A stretch of DNA of 64,000 nucleotides from Heterotrichella gracilis. Lineage: Eukaryota > Sar > Xanthophyceae > Tribonematales > Xanthonemataceae. The notes under the pieces were generated by a model. It was not told the DNA's origin, searched no databases, and worked only from the letters and a program-made list of their open reading frames with translations. Both the position numbers and the translations under genes were made by a program. Within the stretch, counting starts at the first letter, position 1; each line of letters opens with the position of its first letter. Shown here piece after piece: positions 27,887 through 32,003 of the stretch. The DNA is taken from the NCBI GenBank assembly GCA_032358255.1, contig JAULBX010011099.1, positions 310,001 through 374,000 of the forward strand, read 5' to 3'.

Positions 27887-27916
27887 TTGTTTAAATAATA
27901 TCTTTTTTTACCTTTG
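27887..27916 (+). promoter_or_regulatory. Promoter of tRNA-Arg (TTG-N19-TACCTTTG)
   Basis: TTG at 27887-27889 is separated by 19 bp from TACCTTTG at 27909-27916. Both match the Bacteroidota consensus (TTG, 17-23 bp, TAnnTTTG). Transcription should begin around 27923, about 37 bp before the mature tRNA. Confidence 0.8.
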
Positions 27917-27959
27917 CAATCTTGAAAAATAGGTTTGATGAACTCATTTTTTCAAAAAT

Positions 27960-28033
27960 GGTCCCATAGCTCAGCTGGATAGAGCACCGGTTTTCTAAAC
28001 CGGCGGCCTTTGGTTCGAATCCAAATGGGACTA
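27960..28033 (+). tRNA. tRNA-Arg (anticodon UCU)
   Basis: The cloverleaf is complete: a 7-bp acceptor stem GGTCCCA / TGGGACT (one G-T pair at the end), D stem GCTC / GAGC, anticodon stem CCGGT / ACCGG enclosing TTTCTAA with anticodon TCT, a 5-nt variable loop, T stem TTTGG / CCAAA around TTCGAAT, and discriminator A at 28033. CCA is not encoded (it reads CTACA). It reads AGA codons. It has its own promoter and terminator, and its 3' end is repeated 175 bp downstream. Confidence 0.96.
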
Positions 28034-28044
28034 CAATAAGAGCA

Positions 28045-28079
28045 AAAGGCACACGCGAAGCGTGGGCCTTTCTTTTTTA
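28045..28079 (+). terminator. Rho-independent terminator of tRNA-Arg (hairpin A of cassette 1)
   Basis: AAAGGC-A-CACGC-GAA-GCGTG-G-GCCTTT forms a stem with one mismatch (28045-28071), followed by TCTTTTTT. It lies 12 bp after the tRNA. Confidence 0.88.
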
Positions 28080-28152
28080 TGCAGAACGAAGCGAAAGCTA
28101 GCTTTCGCTCAGTGATGTATAAAAAAGAAAGCAGCTCTGAAAGAGCAGCTTT
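28068..28152. other. Cassette 1: palindrome inside a perfect 13-bp inverted repeat, with closing hairpin
   Basis: CTTTCTTTTTTAT (28068-28080) and ATAAAAAAGAAAG (28119-28131) are perfect inverted repeats. Between them is an 18-bp perfect palindrome, GCGAAAGCTAGCTTTCGC (28091-28108). A hairpin with a GAA loop closes the unit (28128-28152: AAAGC-A-GCTCT-GAA-AGAGC-A-GCTTT); its plan, with arms split by one mismatch and a GAA loop, is the same as that of the tRNA terminator on the other side. Apparent reading frames here are short and have no features of a gene. Confidence 0.75.
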
Positions 28153-28192
28153 TGCTATTTCACGAGGAGGTCTTCTTTGGATCAACAGAGTT

Positions 28193-28209
28193 AATCCAAA
28201 TGGGACTAC
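28193..28209 (+). repeat. Direct repeat of the tRNA-Arg 3' end (partial tRNA copy)
   Basis: These 17 bases (AATCCAAATGGGACTAC) are identical to 28018-28034, that is, the 3' side of the T stem, the 3' acceptor strand and the base after the discriminator. Just before it is CTTTGGATC, which gives back a T-arm-like TTTGG / CCAAA pairing. No D or anticodon arm can be found, so it is not a working tRNA. It may be a decayed second tRNA copy or an integration scar. Confidence 0.8.
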
Positions 28210-28213
28210 CACA

Positions 28214-28242
28214 AAAACCCTTCAGCTTTGCTGAAGGGTTTT
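28214..28242 (+). terminator. Perfect terminator-like hairpin (hairpin A of cassette 2)
   Basis: AAAACCCTTCAGC-TTT-GCTGAAGGGTTTT is a perfect 13-bp stem followed by a T-rich tract. Its position relative to the partial tRNA copy is the same as that of the first terminator relative to the real tRNA. Confidence 0.85.
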
Positions 28243-28318
28243 ATATTTTGTACCAAGGCGCAAGCAAGCTTGCAGCCGAAGGGACAAAATATAAAACAAG
28301 ACTCGCATTAGCGAGGCT
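28239..28318. other. Cassette 2: same architecture as cassette 1, different sequence
   Basis: TTTTATATTTTGT (28239-28251) and ACAAAATATAAAA (28284-28296) are perfect 13-bp inverted repeats enclosing the palindrome GCAAGCTTGC (28264-28273). A closing hairpin follows (28300-28318: AG-A-CTCGC-ATTA-GCGAG-G-CT), again with arms split by one mismatch. The plan (hairpin, 13-bp arm, palindrome, 13-bp arm, hairpin) is that of cassette 1, but the bases are unrelated. Confidence 0.72.
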
Positions 28319-28322
28319 ATTT

Positions 28323-28370
28323 TTTGTGATATGGCCCCGCCGCAAGGATCAGCGAGCGCTAGCGAGCTAA
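28323..28370 (+). repeat. Left direct repeat enclosing the palindrome array
   Basis: The core GCCCCGCCGCAAGGATCAG-C-GAGCGCTAGCGAGCTAA (28334-28370) matches 28880-28916 at 34 of 37 positions. A weaker match (TTTGTG.TA) extends it to the left. It is GC-rich against AT-rich surroundings and includes the self-complementary AGCGCT. Confidence 0.88.
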
Positions 28371-28391
28371 TCCGATTTAGAATAAGTTGTT

Positions 28392-28840
28392 TTGCCCTTC
28401 TAGGGCAATGATTAAATGGATGTGTTTTTCTAAAAGCTTTGGTCCCTACGGGACCGATTTTTGTTGCATTCTATAAAAATAATGTCGCTCCTAAGGAGCT
28501 CAAAGGCATTAGGCTTTGCTTTGTTATTATGATGTTGCCCCTCCGGGGCATTGCGTGATTAGAAATTAGTTTCACGCTCCGGAGGAGCGAAATAGTAATA
28601 AAAAGAAGAAGTGATAAATCTTAAGCTCCTTAGGAGCGACATCTTCGGGTTTGGCATCATTCATCTTTTTAATTTTAAGGCCGCTCCTACGGAGCTCAAA
28701 TTGCACATCTCTTGTTATTAGAAACAGTCCGCCCCTATGGGACTTAAATTCATCCAATCTTTTTTAAGGTGTTTTGTTTTGCCCCTCTGGAGCAATAATG
28801 ACTGCAGATCTACTATTGAAATTGTTTGGCCTACACGACC
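28392..28840. repeat. Array of about ten short palindromes at ~49-bp spacing
   Basis: Palindromes with 5-7-bp GC-rich arms and a 3-nt centre lie at 28392 (TTGCCCT-TCT-AGGGCAA), 28441 (GGTCCC-TAC-GGGACC), 28487 (GCTCC-TAA-GGAGC), 28536 (TGCCCC-TCC-GGGGCA), 28575 (CGCTCC-GGA-GGAGCG), 28625 (GCTCC-TTA-GGAGC), 28683 (GCTCC-TAC-GGAGC), 28727 (imperfect, around CCC-TAT-GGG), 28779 (TTGCCCC-TCT-GGAGCAA, one mismatch) and a worn one near 28828. Start-to-start spacing is 39-58 bp, mostly 46-50. Arms vary together, so pairing is kept while sequence changes. Spacers are AT-rich and unlike each other. No gene is seen here. Confidence 0.85.
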
Positions 28841-28868
28841 TATTTAAAGCATAGTTAGACAGCTTATG

Positions 28869-28916
28869 TTTGTGTTAAAGCCCCGCCGCAAGGATCAGAG
28901 AGCACCAGCGAGCTAA
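28869..28916 (+). repeat. Right direct repeat enclosing the palindrome array
   Basis: The partner of 28323-28370, in direct orientation, 34/37 identical in the core (28880-28916). From here to 29008 the DNA is AT-rich with nothing else visible. Confidence 0.88.
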
Positions 28917-29008
28917 GCCTATATTCTATCATACACAAAATAATAGTTTAAATTTTTTTGTAAATAATAAAATAATAAATAGTTTAGCAGAATAAGTCTA
29001 AATAACCC

Positions 29009-29251
29009 ATGAAAAAAAGAAACAACCCTCTAAACGTGCTTTTTATTTTAGCCATCGTGTTTATAAATTATTCCTGCCAAAAACCTCAGGACTGGGAATG
29101 TACCTGTGAGTGTAAGCCAACTGGCGGCTCGTCTTTTACCAAAAGCACACCTATTGAAAATATGAAAAAGTCAGAAGCCATGTCAACCTGCACCGACTTT
29201 GGGAAAGCTATGGTAAATGGAAATGGCAGCTGGAAGTGCGAGATAAAATAA
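29009..29251 (+). CDS. Small Cys-rich lipoprotein, unknown function
   Basis: 80 residues with a lipoprotein signal (MKKRNNPLNVLFILAIVFINYSCQ). The mature part has five further cysteines (WECTCECK, MSTCTDFG, WKCEIK) and a KSTPIENMKKSEAMSTC helix. I know no family for it. Short cell-envelope lipoproteins of this sort are common in Bacteroidota. It is the first gene after the tRNA-associated repeat region and is flanked by AT-rich non-coding DNA on both sides. Codon use and the signal support a real gene. Confidence 0.75.
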   Translation: MKKRNNPLNVLFILAIVFINYSCQKPQDWECTCECKPTGGSSFTKSTPIENMKKSEAMSTCTDFGKAMVNGNGSWKCEIK

Positions 29252-29393
29252 AGCAATTTCTGTTTTGCGATTTATTTCAATCCTCAAATTTTATGAATAG
29301 TTAAAAAGGGGCTTAATCAAAGCCTTTTAACTATAATTATAAAAAACGCATTGTTTATTTCTAGATTCTCACGTTATAAATACAAAGCTTCTT

Positions 29394-32003
29394 TTGTGCA
29401 CTTTTAAAACGTTGGAAGATAATCTAAACATAACACCCGTAAAACCTTCGGTCTTTAAAAAAATTCTCAAGGTTTTTATATGGATCATTCTGCTCATTTT
29501 ATTAGCAGCAGTCTCTCTGCTTGCCTTATTGTTTGTTTATGAAAAGGAAGTGAAAGCCGAAATCGTTAAAGAGTTAAATCGTCATTTAAACGCTGAGGTA
29601 AAGATCGACCCTAAAAACATTGATATTACTATTTTAAGATCTTTTCCCGATTGTGCCATCGAATTTAAGGAGGTGCTCATGTATGAAGCACTTAAAGTAA
29701 AACAACGCGACACGCTCTTATATGCAGGCCGATTAAACTTGTTTTTTAACATTGAAGATCTCTGGAATAAAAAATACGTGATCGAGAAAATAAAAATAAA
29801 GGATGCTGTTGCTAAACTGAGAATTTTAAAAAACGGACAAAACAATTATTCGTTTTGGCAAACAAGTAATGATACAGTTCAAACAAAAGACAGTCTGGAC
29901 TTTCATTTAAAGCTCATCAGTATTGAAAACTGCAGGTTGACGTATAAGGATAAACCCAATGAATTTAAAATACAAGCCTATTTAAATTTGGTGAAGTTCA
30001 GCGGCCATTTTAACGAAACAAACTTTGAAATGCAGGCGGAGATTAAAACGAAGGTGCATGAATTTAGTTTTGAAAATACGCCGTACTTAAAAGACAAAAA
30101 CGCTGAGTTGTCTCTGAGTCTTCAAGTAAACGAAAACAATTACTCTTTAAACAAGGCCAGGATTAAATTAAACAAACTGACCGTTGACGTGAATGGAAAT
30201 TTTGATGTCGGAAAAAAACTCGAGCACATGAGCCTCACGTATAAAGCGCACGAGTTGGAAATTGCTTCACTCTTATCCTTATTACCCGAGCGATTTAAAA
30301 AGCATATAAATGATTACGAAAGTTCAGGCCATTTTTATGCTGAAGGTAATCTTCGTTATTCAGAAAAAAGTGGTTATAGCACCATCAATGATTTTGGCAT
30401 CAAGAATGGAAAGATCACCTATAAACCAAGTTCTACAAGCGCCGAGAGGGTGAATGTGTTGGGGCATCTCGAAGTAACGGATAAAACATCTTATCTGCAG
30501 TTAAAAGACATTTATTTAAGTTTGAATAATGATGAAATAAAAGGGAACTGCAGCATCAGCCATTTTTCTGACCCTGAAATTGATGTGAATGCTTCTGCTG
30601 ATCTGAATTTAGAATCTTTACAAAATTTTTGGCCAATTGATACGGTGAGCCAATTAAAAGGCAAAATAAAACTGCTTGGGGAATTAAAAGGTTTAGCGAA
30701 AGACATTAAATCCAACGCACTTTCAGAAAATGTCATAGTTAATTTTGATGCAAGTTTAACAAACATTGAAGTTCAATTTAAACAGGATGACAAACAATAT
30801 GCCGTTGAGAGTGGCTCCATTAGTGTAAGAGAAAGAGAAGTGGTGGTAAGTGAAATGAAATTAAAAAGAGGTAAGTCTGATATGTCTGTCAGCGGTAGAA
30901 TCCCCGGATTATTTAAATATTTACTTGATAGAACCTCGCCACTAACTATTACCGGAAGTTTGAACTCTAACAACATTCGTCTGGAGGATTTTATGGCCGC
31001 CTCTTCCAATTCGAGCGCGTATAATAACAACGACCTAATACCGGCAAACGTAAGTTTTAATCTGGATGCGGGAATTAAAAACTTTAGTTTTGGAAAATTT
31101 GAAGCACAAGAGATAAGAGGAGACCTGGAGATCAGAAATCAAAAAATGATTGTGACAGACATGAAGTTTAAAACCATGCAAGGAGAAGCGCAATTTCAGG
31201 CGTATGTGGATAATTCGCACAAAAAACTGGATGTGGTTTTACAAAGCGATCTTAAGAATATTAACATCACCGAATTGTTTTCGCAATTAAATAATTTCGG
31301 ACAAACAACTTTAACCCAAGAAAATTTAAAAGGCCTTGGTTCTGCCACCGTAGATTTTTCGGGAAGCTGGAACAATCGTTTGGAGGTGGATGAAAGTTCT
31401 ATTAAAGCGCTATGTAATTTGATCATTACCGGTGGTGAACTTATTGAGTTTAAGCCATTGTTAAGTTTATCGAAGTTTGTGGATGTGAACGATTTGAAAC
31501 GCATTAAATTTTCAACACTTCAAAGTAATATAGAAATTAAAAACAGCACCATTTTTATCCCTAAAACAGCCATCAAAAATTCTGCCTTAAATTTAGAATT
31601 GAGTGGCACACATACCTTTGACAACGTTATTAATTACCACATTCAATTACTTATCAGTGAACTATTGGCTAAAAAGAGACAGAAAAAGGATGATGAGTTT
31701 GGCCCGGTTGAAAGCGACAACAATAAACGAAGCGCCTTCATCAGTATGACAGGCACGGTGGATAATCCTATCATAAAATACGACCGTCAGGGCTTAAAGC
31801 AAAAAATTAAGGAAGATCTTAAACAAGAAAAACAAACAATCAAAGAACTTCTTAAAGAGGAATTTGGTTTGTTTAAAAAAGACACCCTTGTTCGAAAAAC
31901 TAAAACGGAAGAAACAAACTTCCAAATTGAAAAACCAAATGCGCCTGCTCCAAAAAGGCCACTTGAACCAAAGAAAAAGAAAGAAGAAGAAGATGACTTT
32001 TAA
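29394..32003 (+). CDS. AsmA-like family protein
   Basis: 869 residues. After a short cytosolic N-terminus a single membrane helix (VFIWIILLILLAAVSLLALLFVY, about 27-49) leads into a long periplasmic beta-rich body. The start of the domain, LNRHLNAEVKIDPKNIDITILRSFPDCAIEF, matches the AsmA N-terminal pattern, and a second AsmA-type segment lies near the end (ISMTGTVDNPIIKYD). Proteins of this class form a lipid groove between the membranes and affect outer-membrane lipid transport. The C-terminus is a charged helix with many Lys/Glu. The frame has only TTG starts (29394 or 29412) before residue ~94; I kept 29394 without strong preference. Confidence 0.85.
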   Translation: MCTFKTLEDNLNITPVKPSVFKKILKVFIWIILLILLAAVSLLALLFVYEKEVKAEIVKELNRHLNAEVKIDPKNIDITILRSFPDCAIEFKEVLMYEALKVKQRDTLLYAGRLNLFFNIEDLWNKKYVIEKIKIKDAVAKLRILKNGQNNYSFWQTSNDTVQTKDSLDFHLKLISIENCRLTYKDKPNEFKIQAYLNLVKFSGHFNETNFEMQAEIKTKVHEFSFENTPYLKDKNAELSLSLQVNENNYSLNKARIKLNKLTVDVNGNFDVGKKLEHMSLTYKAHELEIASLLSLLPERFKKHINDYESSGHFYAEGNLRYSEKSGYSTINDFGIKNGKITYKPSSTSAERVNVLGHLEVTDKTSYLQLKDIYLSLNNDEIKGNCSISHFSDPEIDVNASADLNLESLQNFWPIDTVSQLKGKIKLLGELKGLAKDIKSNALSENVIVNFDASLTNIEVQFKQDDKQYAVESGSISVREREVVVSEMKLKRGKSDMSVSGRIPGLFKYLLDRTSPLTITGSLNSNNIRLEDFMAASSNSSAYNNNDLIPANVSFNLDAGIKNFSFGKFEAQEIRGDLEIRNQKMIVTDMKFKTMQGEAQFQAYVDNSHKKLDVVLQSDLKNINITELFSQLNNFGQTTLTQENLKGLGSATVDFSGSWNNRLEVDESSIKALCNLIITGGELIEFKPLLSLSKFVDVNDLKRIKFSTLQSNIEIKNSTIFIPKTAIKNSALNLELSGTHTFDNVINYHIQLLISELLAKKRQKKDDEFGPVESDNNKRSAFISMTGTVDNPIIKYDRQGLKQKIKEDLKQEKQTIKELLKEEFGLFKKDTLVRKTKTEETNFQIEKPNAPAPKRPLEPKKKKEEEDDF

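Follow-up and report, generated by a model that had tools for sequence, protein, structure and literature searches.

The window, by which we mean the whole stretch of 64,000 nucleotides analysed here, contains an array of about ten triloop-palindrome units, with steps of 39-58 bp (positions 28387-28842). The array represents a widespread mobile-DNA repeat, other copies of which adjoin a single-strand DNA transposase to which the repeat probably belongs. More precisely, we regard the array as a likely BIME-like cluster formed by REP-type elements of the Y1/HUH (IS200-like) transposase TnpA subclass 1.2. The observations behind this reading are the anatomy of the array, the linkage of such units to the gene, a fixed distance between tag and hairpin, the orientation of the units, stems shared by the two sides of a gene, and homologous blocks elsewhere in the assembly.

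The array lies between a tRNA-Arg (tct) gene (27960-28034, + strand) and a small gene at about 29009, a putative lipoprotein according to the first-pass annotation. A scan for perfect palindromes whose arms measure at least 5 bp, with 4 or more G/C, around a 3-nt centre found seven at 28392-28695, and alignment on the hairpin centres oriented all of them except the first: unit 1, TTGCCCTTCTAGGGCAA (28392-28408), not oriented; units 2 to 4 on the + strand, GGTCCCTACGGGACC (28441-28455), GCTCCTAAGGAGC (28487-28499) and TGCCCCTCCGGGGCA (28536-28550); units 5 and 6 reversed, on the - strand, CGCTCCGGAGGAGCG (28575-28589) and GCTCCTTAGGAGC (28625-28637); and unit 7 on the + strand again, GCTCCTACGGAGC (28683-28695). 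Three further, imperfect palindromes continuing the same rhythm were recognised by eye: units 8 and 9, each with one mismatch (GCCCCTATGGGAC, 28731-28743, and GCCCCTCTGGAGC, 28781-28793), and the decayed unit 10 (GGCCTACACGACC, approximately 28830-28842). Ten units, seven perfect and three decayed, are thus packed within about 450 bp. Centre-to-centre steps, read by hand, were 48, 45, 50, 39, 49, 58, 48, 50 and 49 bp, and the two odd ones, 39 and 58, coincide with a change of orientation between adjacent units.

The first-pass annotation had described about ten short, regularly spaced palindromes whose arm letters differ from unit to unit while pairing is kept, and had tied a chance origin to absence of such arrays elsewhere, or to pairing no better than in shuffled sequence. 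When the 480 bp of the array region were shuffled 1000 times with dinucleotides preserved, perfect palindromes numbered 0.048 on average and 2 at most, against the seven observed, and chance was rejected; the array is real, its pairing is indeed kept as the letters change, and the species-genome scan described below found such palindromes elsewhere. The annotation was also right that this is no CRISPR: the units are short, non-identical and present in both orientations, and near-identical repeats with unique spacers are absent. Its statement that the spacers are all unalike did not hold, as they carry a degenerate 5′ tag and long stretches of them recur on contigs C127 and C191 of the same assembly.

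Two other repeats were noticed around the array. A 61-nt direct repeat, 82% identical between its copies, flanks it on both sides (28316-28376 and 28862-28922); its core, CCGCAAGGATCAG, was found in 0 of 313 loci examined. Separately, a 15-nt copy of the 3′ end of the tRNA-Arg gene (28020-28034) is present at 28195-28209, 160 bp beyond the tRNA, and by eye resembles an old attachment site.

The window lies on contig C111 (873,646 bp; the window and 185.6 kb more were read), in an assembly of 68.5 Mb and 903 contigs. Ten window proteins were scanned, among them LepA, a succinate dehydrogenase flavoprotein and two proteins with T9SS sorting domains; LepA shares 96% identity with its counterpart in Bacteroidetes bacterium MGR_bin339 (genome G023, locus L078) and 90% with the one in UBA4416 (genome G009, locus L042). 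From sequence we infer that C111 is a Bacteroidota contig within a mixed assembly, since a bacterial window inside 68.5 Mb in 903 contigs means that the assembly probably mixes organisms.

Further palindrome arrays were found on C111 near 582, 712 and 738 kb, on C127 and C191 and, in shorter form, on C1. The array units are short intergenic palindromes repeated in the genome, a trait that they share with REP elements. Window positions 28387-28677 match C127 at 80% identity over 291 bp, a segment of about 216 bp (approximately 28482-28698) recurs four times in the C191 array at 73-76% identity, and 28677-28766 match positions 1061-1154 of contig C729 (G000), with 74% identity over 90 bp. The blocks common to C111, C127 and C191 represent dispersal or duplication of multi-unit pieces. 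In the C191 array the centre steps are near 50, 40, 49 and 59 bp, the orientations are + + - -, and a super-repeat of about 198 bp results. Its last palindrome lies 100 bp from a 153-aa frame matching Pfam Y1_Tnp (E 2.7e-29). Two Y1 genes were found in the assembly, on C191 and C331, and palindromes lie 13 and about 60 bp from the ends of the latter; the two copies are divergent (55% identical). The claim that no transposase is present therefore stands for the window array, which has no gene of its own, but fails for the assembly, where only about 100 bp separate the end of a homologous array from a Y1/HUH gene.

The Y1 protein is about 150 aa long and has the motifs DHxH, WQ and YIxNQxxHH. 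As far as the available part of the survey by Quentin et al. (2018, PMC6006769) goes, subclass 1.2 is defined there by Y---Q--HH, DH[IV]H, WQ, a length of about 148 aa and a low copy number; it ranges over Cyanobacteria and Bacteroidetes, is listed as REP “no”, and the survey calls its own account the first characterization. Judged by its motifs, the transposase is a member of this subclass. An alignment of 13 TnpA proteins, 2 from the window's assembly and 11 from loci of the palindrome scan (hereafter A1), has Y...Q..HH and not the Y...NP of class 2. All four TnpA tested exceeded the NCBIfam IS200 cut-off and all four fell below the NCBIfam REP cut-off, and the structurally solved sequence relatives are IS200-type transposases.

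To look beyond this assembly, species genomes were scanned for GCTCCTACGGAGC followed by a second palindrome, which gave at least 114 loci. By their titles, the loci listed include Bacteroidota, Ignavibacteria, Verrucomicrobia, Acidobacteria, Poribacteria, Brocadiaceae, Lentisphaerae and Neomarinimicrobiota, and the first-pass mention of similar GCTCCTACGGAGC repeats in other Bacteroidota was thus borne out. A match to the transposase was present in 17 of the 114 listed loci, two of them partial or broken (L080, L110), and in 20 of 140 when three loci of the window's own assembly (L012, L139, L140) were counted in. Because these loci had been picked for their palindromes, the test was reversed and genes were picked by protein similarity. 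A1 matched at E 1e-15 in 133 of 296 genomes sampled from the phylum of G023 (Bacteroidota). The 65 loci analysed were a first set of 30 and a further 35 taken in rank order; L218, which is only a fragment in G023, was excluded. A triloop palindrome was found within 300 bp of the gene in 53 of the 65, where shuffled flanks would give 0.65, and on both sides in 26. Palindrome density beside these genes was 4.38 per kb in the first 200 bp, then 2.47, 0.90, 0.39 and 0.27, and 0.04-0.16 beyond 1 kb. Twelve genes had no triloop palindrome; counting 4-nt loops, 59 of the 65 had palindromes and 6 had none. The Y motif ended in HH in 57 of the 65. The same association was seen in Verrucomicrobiota, the phylum of G038 (24 of 30 genes, 3.9 expected), and in Acidobacteria, the phylum of G040 (26 of 30, 4.4 expected). 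Among the genes of these two sets, L254 is identical with L029, a locus that had entered through its palindromes; the genomes G023, G036 and G040 were likewise first met by palindromes. A Y1 gene flanked by repeats, the arrangement of a REPtron, is what most of these loci contain.

Class-2 RAYT genes were considered as an alternative partner and rejected. RAYT control loci of the first phylum had palindromes in 7 of 30 cases, with a density near the gene of 0.67 per kb, compared to 5.67 per kb at the first 30 subclass 1.2 loci (gene ends being derived from locus lengths). Whole genomes gave a similar indication, with genome size and kinship ignored: the exact 13-mer GCTCCTACGGAGC was present in 31 of 92 genomes having TnpA at E 1e-40, versus 18 of 204 without (Fisher P 3.7e-7), and the reversed letters of the same 13-mer leaned the opposite way (2 of 92 versus 25 of 204, P 0.004, same proviso). 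Nine genomes had at least two exact GCTCCTACGGAGC and no TnpA at E 1e-40 (G052, G082, G098, G113, G170, G173, G255, G266 and G335); these may reflect orphan arrays, incomplete genomes, chance or another enzyme. Variant hairpins were also encountered. Such genes at L156, L163, L250 and L253 are flanked by 4-nt-loop versions, some on both sides, and at L334 and L336 more distant HH-type TnpA genes have longer hairpins with 2- to 4-nt loops on both sides, perhaps further repeat families.

A different ranking weakened the association. As A1 was built from 13 palindrome-flanked genes, part of its strength may stem from the A1 ranking itself. When genes of the same phylum were ranked with NF033573 (28 of 30 loci scored, L314 and L325 being left aside, and several genes also present in the A1 set), triloop palindromes were found at 5 of 10 genes scoring at least 200 bits against A1, 2 of 4 at 150-200, 0 of 5 at 100-150, 1 of 3 at 50-100, and 2 of 6 below 50 bits (L315-L320, classical IS200-like). 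A sorting of this set by motif, whose pattern could catch an earlier tyrosine and which is superseded, had given palindromes at 4 of 14 “HH” genes and 3 of 9 “other” genes, 7 being unsorted.

Aligned on the hairpin centre, the units gave the consensus cTAtaAA.ATgtC-GCTCC-TAC-GGAGC-t, in which information outside the hairpin is almost confined to the 5′ side. A unit of about 49-50 bp thus consists of an asymmetric 5′ tag, TA-Y-W-A-A-N-A-T, and a triloop hairpin whose centre lies 18 nt from the first T of the tag. Selection by pairing was avoided by searching the 600-bp flanks of the 65 genes for the tag only. Of 127 tags, 46 were accompanied by a perfect hairpin of 5 bp with a 3-nt loop at offset 18, a single tag by one at 16, and none by one at the 18 other offsets; at RAYT loci, 42 tags yielded a single hairpin, at offset 21.

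We consider it very unlikely that the array acts as RNA, its transcribed hairpins ending transcription or serving to protect or mark transcripts, even if maintenance of pairing under changing letters fits an RNA, and 27900-29400 contains 11 terminator-like sites, versus 1.8 in shuffles, two of which are array units. Single units qualify as terminators, but in the consensus no run of T follows the hairpin; no Rfam family except tRNA was found; and an RNA function would leave both the 5′ tag and the association with a DNA transposase to be explained in another way.

At protein-selected loci, 36 of 55 pairs of neighbouring units in the same orientation had a spacing of 49-51 bp, as did 83 of 138 pairs overall (in scan loci, the first pair was preset to 39-59 bp); at L041, six tandem 50-bp units adjoin the gene. 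Such a tight step is what double-stranded protein-binding sites phased at about five helical turns would produce. We nevertheless regard such sites as most improbable, as the stem letters vary widely with pairing kept, and in the assembly the steps turn to 39-40 or 58-59 bp at orientation flips. Neither a phased binding array nor an RNA of stacked hairpins is needed to explain the array.

The units are also ordered with respect to the gene. The tag faces the gene in 36 of 41 nearest downstream units and in 30 of 41 nearest upstream units. An identical 5-nt arm was found on both flanks in 52 of the 59 loci having both flanks populated (permuted mean 8.98, maximum 18), and 35 distinct arms were counted, stems differing between loci. 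Shared, locus-specific stems would be expected if enzyme and repeat had diversified together. The two flanks would likewise carry equal stems if the gene had landed within an array of other origin, the arrays being merely preferred landing sites of the transposase, as for the ISPpu9 copies located in REPs of Pseudomonas putida (PMC8450116, in the part available). We judge this unlikely: landing in a run of same-orientation units predicts equal orientation on both sides, whereas the units face the gene, and the stems are locus-specific in three phyla.

If the array is indeed a REP-type cluster of TnpA subclass 1.2, recognition, cleavage and mobility of the units by this enzyme may be pictured by analogy. 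The model is TnpA_REP, for which the loop bases and a 5′ tetranucleotide set strand and cleavage, according to the accessible part of PMC8266576. A unit would fold when its strand is exposed, for example in replication; TnpA would recognise the hairpin, its loop and the 5′ tag on a single strand, in the way that IS200/IS605 and REP systems use guide sequences and loops, then cut and rejoin single-stranded DNA, so that units or blocks of units would spread; recombination between repeats would then lengthen or shorten the arrays. Loci L141 and L143 are nearly identical except for 164 nt inside the array, with ends within palindromes. This is the only such difference seen between near-identical loci, and it looks well explained by recombination.

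Related genomes were compared at the site of the array. In G023, no palindromes follow the corresponding tRNA-Arg, which is followed by about 160 bp and then, by eye, an apparent open frame, nor do any follow the AsmA-like gene upstream. Gene order differs there, and this weakens the missing array as an observation on movement. In G009, the tRNA is followed by 313 bp of sequence before the contig stops. Only tentatively, as a proposal more likely to fail than to hold, do we suggest that TnpA subclass 1.2 and the triloop repeats together make up an additional REP superfamily, in at least Bacteroidota, Verrucomicrobiota and Acidobacteriota; that the 49-51-bp step is the unit of movement; that one tag-hairpin unit, with the tag of the next unit as right end, is a complete tiny single-strand transposon; and that arrays grow by insertion at existing tags.

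In the part of the 2018 survey available (PMC6006769), no partner DNA was found for subclass 1.2, so that the role of the enzyme stayed open. Our literature search, which covered mostly titles and abstract openings, met no link between such palindromes and this subclass; in a search by sequence letters, the papers examined held GGAGCGACAT only, and none of the three palindrome words. The triloop palindromes are a likely partner DNA of subclass 1.2, which makes its role testable by oligonucleotide cleavage, and a repeat common in several phyla is now tied to an enzyme.

Among known systems, CRISPR arrays share the regular spacing, but the units here are short non-identical palindromes in both orientations, and identical repeats are absent. 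IS200/IS605 elements share the Y1/HUH transposase and hairpins near the gene. Their subterminal hairpins have the same strand orientation at both ends, whereas the present units face the gene from both sides and also form many-unit arrays without it. Compared to the subclass 1.2 TnpA described in the available part of PMC6006769, the proteins have the same size and motifs; what differs is that REP-like units flank the gene here and that related genes occur in genomes of two more phyla. The closest likeness is to REP/BIME elements and the REPtrons of TnpA_REP (RAYT), which likewise have short 5′-tagged palindromes that form inverted pairs and clusters at a single Y1 gene and are dispersed elsewhere. 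The GTAG and CGTC superfamilies of REPs are defined by that tetranucleotide at the hairpin foot (Di Nocera et al., 2013, PMC3733652, as far as available); the present units have neither, the tag TA-Y-W-A-A-N-A-T preceding a 3-nt-loop hairpin instead, and the enzyme has Y...Q..HH where class 2 RAYT have Y...NP. On sequence grounds, units and enzyme look to resemble the REP/REPtron kind in their working, outside the GTAG and CGTC superfamilies.
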